In this document: positions 11,942-36,698 of the stretch, piece by piece
Position numbering within the stretch: the first letter of the stretch is position 1
Layout of the letters: every line of letters starts with the position of its first letter
Source of the DNA: a virus
Reading direction: 5' to 3' (one strand)
Length of the DNA: 36,698 nt
Virus record (IMG/VR): IMGVR_UViG_3300037247_000590
Location: 1-36,698 of that record
Notes under the pieces: model-generated
The model's input: only the letters and a program-made list of their open reading frames with translations
Database searches by the model: none
Told to the model about the DNA's origin: nothing
Made by a program: the position numbers and the translations under genes

Positions 11942-12376
11942 TTACTCTATTGGTCTGTAATCTGCATCAGGTGCTGGCTGTGCTGTTTGTACTATGACAC
12001 ATTCTAATTCATAACTATAATTTGATCCGTTTAGATTTTCTTTTAGAATTTCAACATGTTTTAATAATCTACATGTTACTCTTGTTTCTCTTTTTGATTC
12101 TGGGTAGGTTTTAAACCAATATATATACCAAACATAAGCATCATCGGGAAACGGTTTACCCATGATTCGTTCATAGTCTGCTGGAGTGTAATATAATTGG
12201 ATTACTTTTTTACCTTTGCATTTTGGACATTTAACAAAACACTGATCATTATCTTGTAAATCACGATCAACTTTGTCACCCATACCCCCACACTCAGGAC
12301 AAACCTTTTCTATTGGCATCAAATCGGTTGGTTTTGAAAGATCTCTTAAACCATTGATCATTCTTTCATTCATCAT
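11942..12376 (-). CDS. Zinc-finger protein with DnaJ-type CxxCxG repeats (144 aa)
   Basis: A 144-aa protein with V-C-P-E-C-G-G-M-G at 25-33 and K-C-P-K-C-K-G-K-K at 49-57, a pair of C-x2-C knuckles like those of the DnaJ Cys-rich domain. The rest is alpha/beta (Y-T-P-A-D-Y-E-R-I-M-G-K-P-F) with no recognised fold. It overlaps the end of the upstream gene by 11 bases. It may bind DNA or protein through the zinc pair. Confidence 0.65.
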   Translation of the reverse strand: MMNERMINGLRDLSKPTDLMPIEKVCPECGGMGDKVDRDLQDNDQCFVKCPKCKGKKVIQLYYTPADYERIMGKPFPDDAYVWYIYWFKTYPESKRETRVTCRLLKHVEILKENLNGSNYSYELECVIVQTAQPAPDADYRPIE

Positions 12377-13947: not shown

Positions 13948-14050
13948 ACAAAAAAGGCACTCTGTCAGGGGCTGACGTTGAACCTTTCGATTCCCCCCGA
14001 CAAAATGCCTTTACTATTTCCAATATCTTAACGTCAGTAAAGATACCCTA
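13948..14050 (-). ncRNA. Structured 5' leader: two hairpins with a kissing interaction and a terminator-like stem
   Basis: On the minus strand, hairpin 1 pairs CUUUACU (14042-14036) with AGUAAAG (14015-14009). Hairpin 2 is a 19-bp stem, 14012-13994 with 13971-13953, containing three G-U wobbles and followed by UUUUUUG. Its apex holds a GAAA-capped 5-bp hairpin (13993-13980) and a free AACGUCAG (13979-13972). That octamer is complementary to CUGACGUU (14037-14030), mostly in loop 1. Hairpin 1 and the base of stem 2 share four bases. A promoter lies directly upstream. The wobbles would be mismatches on the plus strand. This looks like an attenuator or riboswitch-like control of the 84-aa and replication genes. 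The class is not recognised. Confidence 0.7.
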
Positions 14051-14056
14051 TAAAAC

Positions 14057-14085
14057 ATACTATCCCATAACCCCGATTTAATCAA
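14057..14085 (-). promoter_or_regulatory. Probable promoter for the structured leader
   Basis: On the minus strand TTGATT (14085-14080) and TAGTAT (14062-14057) are 17 bp apart, each 4 of 6 to consensus. The predicted start near 14050 falls immediately before hairpin 1 of the leader. It overlaps the end of the upstream 55-aa gene. Confidence 0.5.
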
Positions 14086-19102: not shown

Positions 19103-19181
19103 TGGAGGTACGGGGAATCGAACCCCGGTCCCGGAAGATCCTTTTAAGGTTTTTATCCCGGTCGACACCATTTTTACCCCC
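19103..19181 (-). ncRNA. tmRNA tRNA-like domain without the message domain (79 nt)
   Basis: The minus-strand RNA starts GGGGGUA and ends UACCUCC-A, a 7-bp acceptor whose third pair is G-U with discriminator A. These are the alanine identity elements kept in tmRNA. The 5' part contains UGGUGUCGACCGGGAU, the tmRNA D-loop signature (E. coli: UGGAUUCGACGGGAU). The 3' part has CCGGGAC followed by a T arm CGGGG-UUCGAUU-CCCCG, again as in tmRNA. Between them only about 20 nt remain, with CCU/AGG pairing as a stub of helix P2. The tag reading frame and pseudoknots (normally ~280 nt) are absent. No anticodon arm is present and CCA is not encoded. It is cotranscribed 9 bases after a small gene. It may be a decoy for SmpB or AlaRS, or a remnant. 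Confidence 0.75.
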
Positions 19182-20614: not shown

Positions 20615-20643
20615 AGTTTAACACGGCATGTTATACTTGTCAA
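20615..20643 (-). promoter_or_regulatory. Early promoter, leftward
   Basis: On the minus strand TTGACA (20643-20638) and TAAACT (20620-20615) are 17 bp apart with an extended TGT before the -10. It faces away from the plus-strand promoter at 20691-20719. The AT-rich gap between them repeats AAAAAGTTA twice. Confidence 0.75.
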
Positions 20644-20690: not shown

Positions 20691-20719
20691 TTGACAATTT
20701 GGGGTATTGGGCTTATTGT
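20691..20719 (+). promoter_or_regulatory. Promoter for the structured RNA and early plus genes
   Basis: TTGACA (20691-20696) and TATTGT (20714-20719) are 17 bp apart. The predicted start is near 20726, where the folded noncoding stretch begins. Confidence 0.7.
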
Positions 20720-20725
20720 GGAGTT

Positions 20726-21130
20726 GTTCAGTGTGGTAGCTGATGAGTAATACAAACCTATCCTGTAGTTCATAGTTTTAAGGCTGTTGAACGCTTCTTA
20801 TAATTAGATCTTGGGATAGGGTCTGGTTCCGGAATTACCACCGGGGAAGCGTTGAGCAGCTTTTTTTATGCTCTAATGTTTAACTGGACCGCTTGGGGTA
20901 AGTACATCGGCGTTGAGTGGTAACAGGTGGCTATAGCTGGGAGCCTACCGGAAAGCTGGGAATTAGCCAGAAATACACGTCACCTTTGTATCGAGGTAAT
21001 GATCAAGTGGTTATCCAAGACATAAAAGGATAATCTGTAGTCCCGGTCAAAGGGCATCGGGGGAGCCTGCTTAACAGCCTATAAGGGTTGTTCCTGTCTA
21101 TATGACGGGTAGCGAGGGGTATATATTAAA
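20726..21130 (+). ncRNA. Large structured noncoding RNA, about 400 nt
   Basis: No supported gene exists between 20584 and 21147. The plus transcript folds into many compact helices: CCUAUCC/GGAUAGG (about 20758 with 20814), GAGCA/UGCUC inside AAGCG/CGCUU (20848-20895), GGUGGCU/AGCC-U-ACC (20926-20949), AUACA/UGUAU (20973-20991), GGUUAUCC/GGAUAAUC (21009-21035), CCCGGU/AUCGGG (21042-21061) and CCUGUC/GACGGG (21093-21109). AGGUG at about 20925 can pair with CACCU in the AUACA hairpin loop. The last three long helices each contain G-U pairs valid only on this strand. It resembles the large ornate RNAs of phages (ROOL and GOLLD are examples) in setting, but no known class is recognised. Confidence 0.7.
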
Positions 21131-21146
21131 ATTAAAGGAGAATATC

Positions 21147-21329
21147 ATGGTAGTAGAAATAAAAGAATTTCTCGAACATTCAAAATACTTTGCAGAAATC
21201 AATAGATGCCCTATAGATGAAATAGAGGTTAGTTTGAATGGTGAAAAGGTGTTTATTCACCCAAGAGAGAAAGAGGATTTTAAGTTTACAGGGTTAAGTA
21301 ATAGAGATTACATCGGGCTATTTTTTTAA
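21147..21329 (+). CDS. Small early protein (60 aa)
   Basis: The ATG at 21147 is chosen for its AAAGGAG site; an earlier frame would run into the structured RNA. The protein starts M-V-V-E-I-K-E-F-L-E-H and includes I-E-V-S-L-N-G-E-K-V-F-I-H-P, a compact beta pattern. No family is recognised. First gene after the noncoding RNA. Confidence 0.6.
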   Translation: MVVEIKEFLEHSKYFAEINRCPIDEIEVSLNGEKVFIHPREKEDFKFTGLSNRDYIGLFF

Positions 21330-21341
21330 AAGGAGATAATC

Positions 21342-21521
21342 ATGGCAAATGGAATTTGTAATAAATTAGATAAACTCGAAGGAAAAATAAAGATTACCTG
21401 TGATGCTGGATGTAAATATTTTAAATTTCCTCATCTTGAAACAGCTTGTGTATTAAGTGAGGTATACTCAGTTAAAAAAGGTGGAGGTTGCTATATTTAC
21501 GATAAAGGAGATGATACATGA
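21342..21521 (+). CDS. Cys-containing early protein (59 aa)
   Basis: A 59-aa protein with G-I-C-N-K-L, I-T-C-D-A-G-C-K-Y-F-K, T-A-C-V-L-S and G-G-G-C-Y-I-Y. Five cysteines suggest a zinc or disulfide-like core. An AAAAGGAGATAATC leader precedes the ATG, and its stop overlaps the next start (ATGA). Function unknown. Confidence 0.65.
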   Translation: MANGICNKLDKLEGKIKITCDAGCKYFKFPHLETACVLSEVYSVKKGGGCYIYDKGDDT

Positions 21522-21868
21522 AACAAGAAACACTAAAAAAGATTGTTGAGTTAGCTGATGGGTATCATTGGGAGGATGGGCAGGTTAATGATCCTGCTAA
21601 TTTTATATATACTCTTGATAATTTAAATCCTGAATATCAAAAAAATATATGGGAATTAGTTGATTATCCCTTACTTCTTCGAAGAGCTGCTGAAGGATGG
21701 AGCTGTGATAATCCACAGTATGAAATTATTATAGGTAGAACTTGTTTAGATATTATTGACTGGGATGGTAAAGATAATTTTCAACTTAATGATTATATCC
21801 AAACTGACGAACTTACTCAGCAAGAATTAGCAATAGAAGCCTGTTTGATTGAATTGTTGGAGAAATAA
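21518..21868 (+). CDS. Hypothetical early protein (116 aa)
   Basis: A 116-aa acidic protein: helix T-L-K-K-I-V-E-L-A-D-G-Y, then W-E-D-G-Q-V-N-D-P-A-N-F-I, L-L-R-R-A-A-E-G-W-S and a C-terminal helix. The order recalls small phage proteins that follow the line G-x-x-W...P...A-x-E-A. No function is assigned. It ends 49 bases before a terminator. Confidence 0.6.
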   Translation: MKQETLKKIVELADGYHWEDGQVNDPANFIYTLDNLNPEYQKNIWELVDYPLLLRRAAEGWSCDNPQYEIIIGRTCLDIIDWDGKDNFQLNDYIQTDELTQQELAIEACLIELLEK

Positions 21869-21917: not shown

Positions 21918-21940
21918 AGACCCGGTGTTGTTCCGGGTCT
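21918..21940. terminator. Convergent intrinsic terminator
   Basis: AGACCCGG pairs perfectly with CCGGGTCT around TGTTGTT. Minus transcripts continue into TTTTT, plus ones into ATAAGTTTAC. It separates the plus early genes from the minus cluster ending at 21962. Confidence 0.85.
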
Positions 21941-23798: not shown

Positions 23799-23945
23799 AT
23801 GAAAACATTAGTATCTATTTCAGATGATTTAGCAGAAGTGATTAAAAAACATAGAATCAAGCATTATCCAGACTTAACACTACCTAAATTGTTAGTCAGA
23901 TTACTGTTTGACGATATTAAACAAAAGGAGGTAGACAGTAAATGA
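23799..23945 (+). CDS. Small putative ribbon-helix-helix regulator (48 aa)
   Basis: A 48-aa protein: strand T-L-V-S-I-S-D-D then helices L-A-E-V-I-K-K-H-R and L-T-L-P-K-L-L-V-R-L-L-F-D-D-I. This strand-helix-helix order and size fit RHH DNA-binding dimers, though the match is weaker than for the gene at 9643-9801. It is the first gene of the rightward unit and a candidate regulator of the divergent promoters. AGAGGTGAC precedes the ATG. Confidence 0.55.
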   Translation: MKTLVSISDDLAEVIKKHRIKHYPDLTLPKLLVRLLFDDIKQKEVDSK

Positions 23946-24514
23946 CAGTAAAAGAAATAGCAGAGTTTACAGGAAAGAATAAATCAACGATAGGCCGATG
24001 GGTTGCAAAATGCAACTCGAAATCTATAACAGAGAAAAATGTTATCTCATATAAAAGGGGTGAATCTGTTAATTATACAGTTGATGAAGTAGAAGAAATA
24101 TTAAAAGCAGGATCTTTGTCAAAGGATGCTGTAAGAATCTTGATGGATAACGCAAGGATGCCTATTGCCACTCTCGAAGAAACAAAGTCATATGAGCCTG
24201 TAAATTATGAGATCATAGGTAAAATGATCGGTATGGCTGTAAGTGCTGCAATGCTTCCGGTTGTACAACAATTACAGAATATCAGTAATCCGGTATTACA
24301 GATTGAACAGCCCAAACAGGATTATTTCTCTCTGGTCGGGTATACCTCATTGCGTAAAATAAAAACTACATCTTCAGAACTTCGGAAGATGGGTATGGAC
24401 TTACGAAAGATTGCAGGCTCACAGGGTAAAGAATTACATAAGATCCCCGATGAACGATATGGTCAGGTCAATTCTTATCCTGTTGAAATTCTTGACGAAT
24501 ATTTTAGTGAATAA
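23942..24514 (+). CDS. HTH DNA-binding protein, antirepressor-like (190 aa)
   Basis: A 190-aa protein. Residues 1-55 (V-K-E-I-A-E-F-T-G-K-N-K-S-T-I-G-R-W, Y-T-V-D-E-V-E-E-I-L) form a MerR/excisionase-like winged HTH. Residues about 128-190 (Y-F-S-L-V-G-Y-T-S-L, E-L-R-K-M-G, I-P-D-E-R-Y-G-Q-V-N-S-Y-P-V-E-I-L) match the C-terminal domain found in phage antirepressor-type proteins. The middle has hydrophobic M-I-G-M-A-V-S-A-A-M. It overlaps the RHH-like gene (ATGA), so the two form a regulatory pair. Confidence 0.65.
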   Translation: MTVKEIAEFTGKNKSTIGRWVAKCNSKSITEKNVISYKRGESVNYTVDEVEEILKAGSLSKDAVRILMDNARMPIATLEETKSYEPVNYEIIGKMIGMAVSAAMLPVVQQLQNISNPVLQIEQPKQDYFSLVGYTSLRKIKTTSSELRKMGMDLRKIAGSQGKELHKIPDERYGQVNSYPVEILDEYFSE

Positions 24515-27808: not shown

Positions 27809-28369
27809 CTATTCTCCTTTAATTAGTAATTCTCTAAGTACATTTATTTCATTCCGTAAGTCCTGCCGTATTTTGGACTCATTAGGGTATAATTCATCTA
27901 CTGTTTTTCCATACTCACAAGCTTTTATGACTTTGTAATCAGTTGATCTTAATTCTACTTTTACTATTTCAAGTTTAATCCTCATTGGTTCTAAAACTTC
28001 AACTTCATTCTTTAAAACTTCATCAATTTCCCATTTCCCTAAAGTCTTATTAAATACTTCATATGTATAAGAAGTTTTAGGTTGTTTCGATGTCCACTCC
28101 TCTCCAGGATCAACATTTAATTCATTTATTTCGTGACTACTTTTATCATTTATATCGTAGTACTTTCCACGATTATCTGTTATTAGTTTTTCAGATATCA
28201 ATTGTTCTAAAGGTTTAAACTGTCCACCTTTTTCAATGTCAATCATATTTAAATTCATACCAACATTTCCAGTAAAATTAATAGTAGATATAAATTGAGT
28301 TCCCTTTGGCTTGTTTTTTGCACAATAATGGGCTATAATGATTTCATCTTTTACTTCAATATATTCCAT
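27809..28369 (-). CDS. Tail fibre accessory / assembly-like protein (186 aa)
   Basis: The start at 28369 shares TAATG with the fibre gene. The 186-aa protein begins M-E-Y-I-E-V-K-D-E-I-I-I-A-H-Y-C and ends S-T-D-Y-K-V-I-K-A-C-E-Y-G, R-Q-D-L-R-N-E-I-N-V-L-R-E-L-L. That ending is the pattern of XkdW- or tail-fibre-assembly-type proteins (D-Y-K-V-I-K ... R-x-x-L-R-x-x-I-N). It probably helps fold or attach the receptor-binding protein just upstream. Confidence 0.55.
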   Translation of the reverse strand: MEYIEVKDEIIIAHYCAKNKPKGTQFISTINFTGNVGMNLNMIDIEKGGQFKPLEQLISEKLITDNRGKYYDINDKSSHEINELNVDPGEEWTSKQPKTSYTYEVFNKTLGKWEIDEVLKNEVEVLEPMRIKLEIVKVELRSTDYKVIKACEYGKTVDELYPNESKIRQDLRNEINVLRELLIKGE

Positions 28370-29184
28370 TATGATACCCTTCTCCATTTTCTGGCTGTTC
28401 TATTCTTTGGACGTGTTTCTGATCCAATTCGAGGGGTTCCAAATGAACTATAAAAAACAGGAGCACCTCGAGTATTTGTATATCTCTTTCTATTACCTGT
28501 ATTAACACCACCAACGTATGCACTTGTCCCTACTTGCGGAATAGATGGCATATTTACATCAGTATTATTGACAGTATCACCATGGCCCCCAGAGAAATAA
28601 GAATCTGCGTGACCTTGAAATGCGTCATTTTGTTGTCCAGCATTAAAAACTGAAGCATTACCGCCTTCAAATCGAATAAAATCTCCTGCAAGTTCTGATG
28701 ACACATTACTCCAAGTACCTGGTAAACTTAATGTTGAAGGGTCGGAATCTCCAGGAAATTGAATATATGTTGAACCAATAGGCCAAGCACCAGATAAATC
28801 TAAATTACCAGTAATTGTTCCACCAACATTTAGATTTTTTTCTATCCCTACTCCACCTTCAACTATCAAAGCTCCTGTGTCTTTATCAGTAGACTCTGTA
28901 GTATTAAGGACTATTAAAGGACTAGCTATGGGAGATTCTATATCACCCGGTTCACCTTGATCTCCCTGTTGGCCAGTATCTCCTTGTGGTCCAGTTGGTC
29001 CTTGTTCTCCATCTTTGATTGTTGGTAAATCATTGTAGTTTTGTATTCCATCACCAGCTTTAATATTTACTGTATCTGTTTCTAAACAAAACTCCCCTTC
29101 TAAAGGAATAGGGTTTACAGATGCCCAATTAGCGGCCGTATCTCTTCTCATTTTTATCGTTGCTTCTTCTATTTTAGAACTCAT
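28369..29184 (-). CDS. Receptor-binding tail fibre with Mtd-N anchor and collagen-like repeat (271 aa)
   Basis: Residues 1-55 (A-T-I-K-M-R-R-D-T-A-A-N-W, N-P-I-P-L-E-G-E-F-C-L-E-T-D-T, K-A-G-D-G) match the N-terminal domain of phage tropism proteins. Residues about 58-82 are G-x-y triplets (G-E-Q-G-P-T-G-P-Q-G-D-T-G). The C-terminal half (W-P-I-G-S-T-Y-I-Q-F, L-P-G-T-W, then E-T-R-P-K-N-R-T-A-R-K-W-R-R) has the collar/fibre-tip pattern, likely a trimeric receptor-binding tip. No reverse transcriptase lies nearby, so it is not a diversity-generating system. Confidence 0.75.
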   Translation of the reverse strand: MSSKIEEATIKMRRDTAANWASVNPIPLEGEFCLETDTVNIKAGDGIQNYNDLPTIKDGEQGPTGPQGDTGQQGDQGEPGDIESPIASPLIVLNTTESTDKDTGALIVEGGVGIEKNLNVGGTITGNLDLSGAWPIGSTYIQFPGDSDPSTLSLPGTWSNVSSELAGDFIRFEGGNASVFNAGQQNDAFQGHADSYFSGGHGDTVNNTDVNMPSIPQVGTSAYVGGVNTGNRKRYTNTRGAPVFYSSFGTPRIGSETRPKNRTARKWRRVS

Positions 29185-36161: not shown

Positions 36162-36698
36162 TTAAAATCTTGCTAATTGACTCGTAACCTCGAAAGTAGT
36201 TGATTCCTGGTCCAAAGATCCAACTGATTTATCTTGTGTAAATCCCGTCCTGATTGCATTGCATATATATCCTGCAGATCCGTCTTCGAATAGTTTAAGC
36301 AAAAATAGTTTAGTATTTAAGAACCCTGCAGCGGCAGTATTGAAAGCTGTAAAGCCTGTTAAGGTCACGAATAAATCTGTTCCAGTTGTTCCTGCAGATA
36401 ATGCAACAGTGGAAGAAGTCCCCGTTGTGTCAGAAGTACATCGTAAATCACCATTAACCAATTCAAATTTTGCCCCGGCCGCAAGTGTAGCATTTAACAA
36501 AACTAGAACCGCTTCATATGTTACATCAGAGCCAGTTGTAAAATCCTCTTCAACTACTCCGGCCCCGTCAATATTTGCCTTGAAAAAGTATTGTGTAGTT
36601 GTACTTAATCCTGTTGCCGTGGTAATTGTTTTACCTGTTAAGCCGCATTCCTGAAATCCATTTTCAATCAGGTTAAACCTCTGGTCAGTTCTGAATCT
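36162..36698 (-). CDS. Tail tube-like protein, 3' part (5' end lies at 1-529)
   Basis: The right-edge part of the 312-aa tail protein. Its first codons here (36698-36572) are the same bases as 127-1, and the frame runs on without stop to 36162. The C-terminal ~130 residues (Y-E-A-V-L-V-L-L-N-A-T-L-A-A-G-A-K-F, G-T-D-L-F-V-T-L-T-G-F, L-F-E-D-G-S-A-G-Y-I-C-N-A) are beta-rich and absent from the 128-aa tube protein. They may form a surface or Ig-like extra domain. Starting at an internal Met at 36500 would be wrong. Confidence 0.7.
   Translation of the reverse strand, partial: RFRTDQRFNLIENGFQECGLTGKTITTATGLSTTTQYFFKANIDGAGVVEEDFTTGSDVTYEAVLVLLNATLAAGAKFELVNGDLRCTSDTTGTSSTVALSAGTTGTDLFVTLTGFTAFNTAAAGFLNTKLFLLKLFEDGSAGYICNAIRTGFTQDKSVGSLDQESTTFEVTSQLARF
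36572..36698. repeat. Terminal direct repeat, right copy
   Basis: Exact copy of 1-127; see the left copy. It lies inside a tail gene and has no independent function visible. Confidence 0.95.

Follow-up and report, generated by a model that had tools for sequence, protein, structure and literature searches.

Genomic setting and coding potential

The window, that is, the whole stretch of 36,698 nucleotides that was analysed, is IMG/VR record IMGVR_UViG_3300037247_000590. A perfect 127-bp direct repeat lies at both record ends (positions 1-127 and 36572-36698), and the record thus represents a complete phage genome, circular and about 36.6 kb long, with a G+C content of 36%. The genome encodes an HK97-type capsid, a portal, a terminase, an ERF recombinase and an Mtd-type tail protein, the latter with an Mtd N-terminal domain and a collagen-like stretch (28369-29184, minus strand). 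Since no reverse transcriptase was found in the whole phage genome, a diversity-generating retroelement is not apparent despite the Mtd-type tail protein. The phage is isolated, its best terminase relatives being two short contigs with 64-75% identity. The minus strand carries the majority of the genes, with the main block at 554-20646. Just outside the 5' end of this block sits the structured stretch under study (about 20726-21124, plus strand), flanked by two divergent promoter-like sites (20643-20615, minus; 20691-20719, plus). The features of the locus are as follows:

20615-20643, minus strand: divergent promoter TTGACA-17-TAAACT, for the minus-strand gene block
20691-20719, plus strand: promoter TTGACA-17-TATTGT
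20726-20867, plus strand: Segment A, with a 5' hairpin (20728-20732/20739-20743), a single-stranded stretch and a long branched hairpin leading into U7
20780-20867, plus strand: intrinsic-terminator-like hairpin of Segment A, an 18-bp interrupted stem with two smaller capping hairpins
20868-21124, plus strand: Segment B, a putative read-through leader, moderately structured, with possible closure by 20867-20874/21116-21123 (p 0.45)
21147-21329, plus strand: 60-aa gene, first in the operon, AAAGGAG ribosome-binding site
21342-21521, plus strand: 59-aa cysteine-containing gene, AAAGGAG
21518-21868, plus strand: 116-aa gene, AAAGGAG
21918-21940, no strand assigned: hairpin between the plus-strand operon and the next minus-strand genes, T run on the minus side

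The promoter at 20691-20719, which the original prediction had placed there, was seen in the sequence and in a promoter scan, as one of 34 genome sites that score at least 10/12, against about 14 expected. To judge from its sequence it may fire, and transcription would then start near 20726. Elsewhere, a further divergent promoter pair (23744, minus, and 23753, plus; 11/12 matches each) has a helix-turn-helix gene downstream (23942-24514), and the two together are probably a second regulatory switch.

That the stretch holds no supported gene, as also predicted, was borne out by ORF, codon-usage and family searches, all of which were negative. The longest ATG, GTG or TTG ORF wholly within the stretch is 38 aa, and no ribosome-binding site was found at any of its ORFs, in-frame starts included. 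The two best open plus-strand frames overlap (20804-20920 and 20917-21030, 38-39 codons). Both score acceptably under a simple codon model and appear protein-like at first sight; their third-position G+C is 42-54%, and their synonymous codon usage is lower than that of 100% and 99.4% of 170 true-gene windows. Neither frame, single or joined, had a family match in Pfam or PHROG. Coding by frameshift was also rejected, as the joined 74-aa frame found a best phage match of only E = 8 and no PHROG. The stretch, showing neither phage codon usage nor a ribosome-binding site, is non-coding. A small protein encoded here is extremely improbable: open frames of 38-39 codons are present, but with atypical codons, no family matches and starts that lack a ribosome-binding site.

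Strand-specific folding and a terminator-like hairpin

The G+C content of the stretch is 46%, against the genome-wide 36%. The structure claimed for the plus strand was upheld: that strand folded with a z score of -2.6 (416 nt), while its reverse complement gave -0.2, which is chance level, and the stretch had the lowest minimum free energy among 180 genome segments of 400 nt, in a scan with 10 shuffles per segment, so that single z values are noisy. Stability is unevenly distributed. The interval 20756-20867 folded at -40.2 as compared with -26.2 +/- 3.3 for shuffled sequences (z -4.27, 0 of 500 as good; minus strand, -1.29), whereas 20867-21124 reached a z score of -1.84, with 9 of 300 shuffles as good; the reverse complement of the latter folds worse than random (z +1.33). 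At least eight helices, all predicted by folding one single sequence, have a pair probability of about 0.9 or higher, and they are spread over both halves of the plus strand:

20780-20788/20855-20863: helix, p about 0.9 or more
20790-20798/20845-20853: helix, p about 0.9 or more
20802-20813/20817-20828: helix, p about 0.9 or more
20829-20832/20841-20844: helix, p about 0.9 or more
20888-20896/20913-20921: hairpin ACCGCUUGG/UUGAGUGGU (20888-20921) with a 16-nt loop, p 0.90
21009-21016/21028-21035: hairpin GGUUAUCC/GGAUAAUC (21009-21035), p 0.92
21073-21080/21085-21092: hairpin AACAGCCU/GGGUUGUU, the first of an adjacent two (21073-21109), p 0.93
21093-21098/21104-21109: hairpin CCUGUC/GACGGG, the second of the two, p 0.99
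20756-20759/21117-21120 and 20867-20874/21116-21123: possible closing helices, p 0.42-0.45

Thus, the stretch is real, non-coding and structured on the plus strand. A proposed pseudoknot was not confirmed: AGGTG (20925-20929) and CACCT (20981-20985) exist, but the folding model pairs both elsewhere, and a 5-base match is not evidence, because dozens are expected by chance (about 80 complementary 5-mer pairs in 400 nt).

The original prediction had overlooked that the first domain ends in U7. The 18-nt arms 20780-20797 and 20846-20863 make the interrupted helix of the terminator-like hairpin, the final G-C pair closes at C20860, and U7 (20861-20867) follows directly, so that at 20780-20867 a GC-rich stem stands directly before a U-run. 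A GC-rich hairpin abutting a U-run is the layout that stops RNA polymerase. Among 90 tracts of at least six T on both strands, the tract at 20861 adjoins the strongest hairpin (-38.4 kcal/mol). The second-strongest adjoins a tract at 13955 on the minus strand, in a second hairpin-plus-T6 element (13948-14060, minus, z -6.1) that occupies a gap within the minus-strand gene block; there, the upstream CTGACGTT can pair with the cap AACGTCAG, as in an attenuator or pseudoknot, and a comparison of this element with Rfam gave nothing above noise. The layout of hairpin and U7 at 20780-20867 suggests that transcription from the 20691 promoter would naturally yield an RNA of about 142 nt, corresponding to Segment A terminated at U7, and that the remainder would be made only by read-through.

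A possible operon leader and its alternatives

The 3' end of the stretch reaches to about 20 bases from the AAAGGAG site of the 60-aa gene, and no terminator-like site was found between 21124 and 21147. The 60-, 59- and 116-aa ORFs show codon usage normal for phage genes; a family search with the three returned no significant match. By analogy with known systems, promoter, terminator-like leader and small genes appear to form an attenuated-operon arrangement. We suggest, in a reading that could equally prove right or wrong, that the stretch is the terminator-controlled untranslated leader of this short plus-strand phage operon and acts by premature termination. From a start near 20726, the majority of polymerases would halt at U7 after the 20780-20867 hairpin, leaving a stable product of about 142 nt. 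Under a certain condition, which could be antitermination by phage or host, or a change in how the leader folds, read-through of Segment B (20868-21124) would allow expression of the three small genes. Segment B may also have a role of its own. An antiterminator-Q-like gene (11942-12376) and the 13948-14060 element fit antitermination control, without proving it.

Like attenuated or antitermination-controlled leaders, the locus has a promoter, a structured untranslated leader and a terminator-like hairpin with U7, followed by genes. Unlike such leaders, it has a long branched cap (about 49 nt, as opposed to the short loop of textbook terminators) and no Rfam match. Also counted against the leader are the missing homologues, the lack of any antiterminator pairing better than chance among those sought, and the G+C content and several hairpins of Segment B, which exceed the needs of a plain leader. 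No known ligand, leader peptide or antiterminator fold was recognised in the stretch.

The stretch had been likened to ROOL and GOLLD, as a single ornate RNA of about 400 nt. It is, like these, phage-borne, non-coding and rich in helices. However, a cmscan of all 4227 Rfam 15 families with E values up to 10 matched neither ROOL nor GOLLD, the sole matches being preQ1-II (16.8 bits, E 6.7) and a piece of a lncRNA, ST7-OT4_3 (10.1 bits). ROOL in phages is often located near tRNA islands (PMC12286853), whereas ARAGORN detected no tRNA anywhere in this circular genome, and many GOLLD exceed 800 nt (PMC12286853), whereas the non-coding stretch spans about 400 nt. In addition, the stretch is shorter than ROOL and GOLLD RNAs and, unlike them, contains a strong internal terminator-like hairpin and has no relatives among the collections searched. 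What is supported of the earlier interpretation is that the stretch forms a non-coding, structured unit of transcription under its own promoter; one continuous ornate RNA of about 400 nt is not supported.

The search for relatives covered several collections. With blastn, no homologue of the stretch was found in 50,697 phage and 72,556 plasmid records, and the RNA was absent from 50 terminase-related viral contigs, from about 780 bacterial genomes and from the sequence flanking 119 loci found by pattern match. When IMG/VR was scanned with exact or translated patterns taken from RNA segments, a 19-mer gave no match and a 14-mer at least 119, none of which was borne out by alignment; IMG/VR relatives sought through the neighbouring 60-aa and 143-aa proteins and the ERF recombinase were likewise not found. 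A 36-nt match in one genome was discarded as chance, because the similarity stops there. A template RNA of a retron or diversity-generating retroelement was rejected, as the genome has no reverse transcriptase and the region is repeated nowhere else in it.

A single ornate phage RNA of about 400 nt that belongs to an undescribed class, acts in trans and is processed or read through past U7 is still an unlikely explanation. The folding energy, lowest of the 180 segments, the G+C content far above that of the genome, the helices of high probability in both halves and the possible closing helices all speak for it, but it would have to accommodate a strong internal terminator layout, closing helices at p just 0.42-0.45, a Segment B that folds weakly above shuffles (z -1.84) and the failure to find relatives. 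We consider it quite doubtful that Segments A and B form one molecule, the first example known of an undescribed class of large ornate trans-acting phage RNAs, made by antitermination past U7.

Alternatively, the RNA of about 142 nt could itself be a trans-acting small RNA, with Segment B a mere 5' UTR of the next genes. Like terminator-ended bacterial small RNAs, 20726-20867 has the classical anatomy of a 5' hairpin, an unpaired middle that could serve as seed and a terminator; unlike them, it has no homologue, and the same anatomy is fitted by an attenuator. This, too, seems improbable to us. Less probable again is a chance-structured, G+C-rich intergenic relic of acquired host DNA or of a decayed gene, functionless as RNA. 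The absence of homologues, the z score of Segment B and the overlapping open frames at 20804-20920 and 20917-21030 would be expected of such a relic, but both frames show non-gene codon usage and no protein match, and a promoter and a strong hairpin with U7 in the correct order are unlikely in a relic.

Were the terminator-controlled leader confirmed, it would be a modest addition, another phage operon with small genes behind a structured terminator. One long ornate molecule would be a new class, and nothing in the present evidence shows so. The stretch is an orphan, and its chief use is therefore to query larger metagenome collections.

A tRNA-like domain of tmRNA

At 1.5 kb from the structured stretch lies a second non-coding element:

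19103-19181, minus strand: tRNA-like domain of tmRNA, 79 nt, without the mRNA-like domain (Rfam tmRNA, 53 bits)

About 303 model positions are deleted in the Rfam match; G3-U70 is present and CCA is not encoded. We considered whether the structured stretch might supply the messenger part of the tmRNA in trans, and rejected this, as no relative of the stretch occurs at any of the tRNA-like-domain loci listed.

A scan of IMG/VR for the short form, in which 117 matches were examined, found at least 91 further domains with both T stem and acceptor stem, and those listed comprise at least 69 distinct sequences. Among the matches listed, both stems covary strongly, with all four Watson-Crick types seen at each of the acceptor pairs 4-69, 5-68 and 6-67 and of the T pairs 49 to 51, and G3-U70, the alanine identity pair, is kept in 69 of 70. 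No SmpB was found in 43 scan records, mostly carriers and many of them fragments. An unannotated tmRNA consisting of the tRNA-like domain only was also found in Streptomyces phage BRock (KX925554.1; 394-474 of locus L416; Rfam tmRNA, 64.5 bits), an isolated phage, between the tRNA-Val and tRNA-Cys genes; it differs from the permuted tmRNAs of cyanophage S-CAM1 and the crAss-like cr7_1. The single published case of this form is that of mycobacteriophage DS6A, where strong inhibition of tmRNA by a similar molecule was reported, perhaps through titration of SmpB (PMC4131195; also PMC11915505).

Together, the viral-contig domains, BRock and DS6A make the form with the tRNA-like domain only look widespread in phages, to go by sequence matches, and we found no statement to this effect in the literature searched. 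With DS6A as precedent, the RNA at 19103-19181 likely serves as a decoy for the tmRNA-SmpB rescue system of the host. The tRNA-like domain matters more than the structured stretch, for it suggests the presence in many phages of a stripped tmRNA that could titrate the host's ribosome-rescue system.
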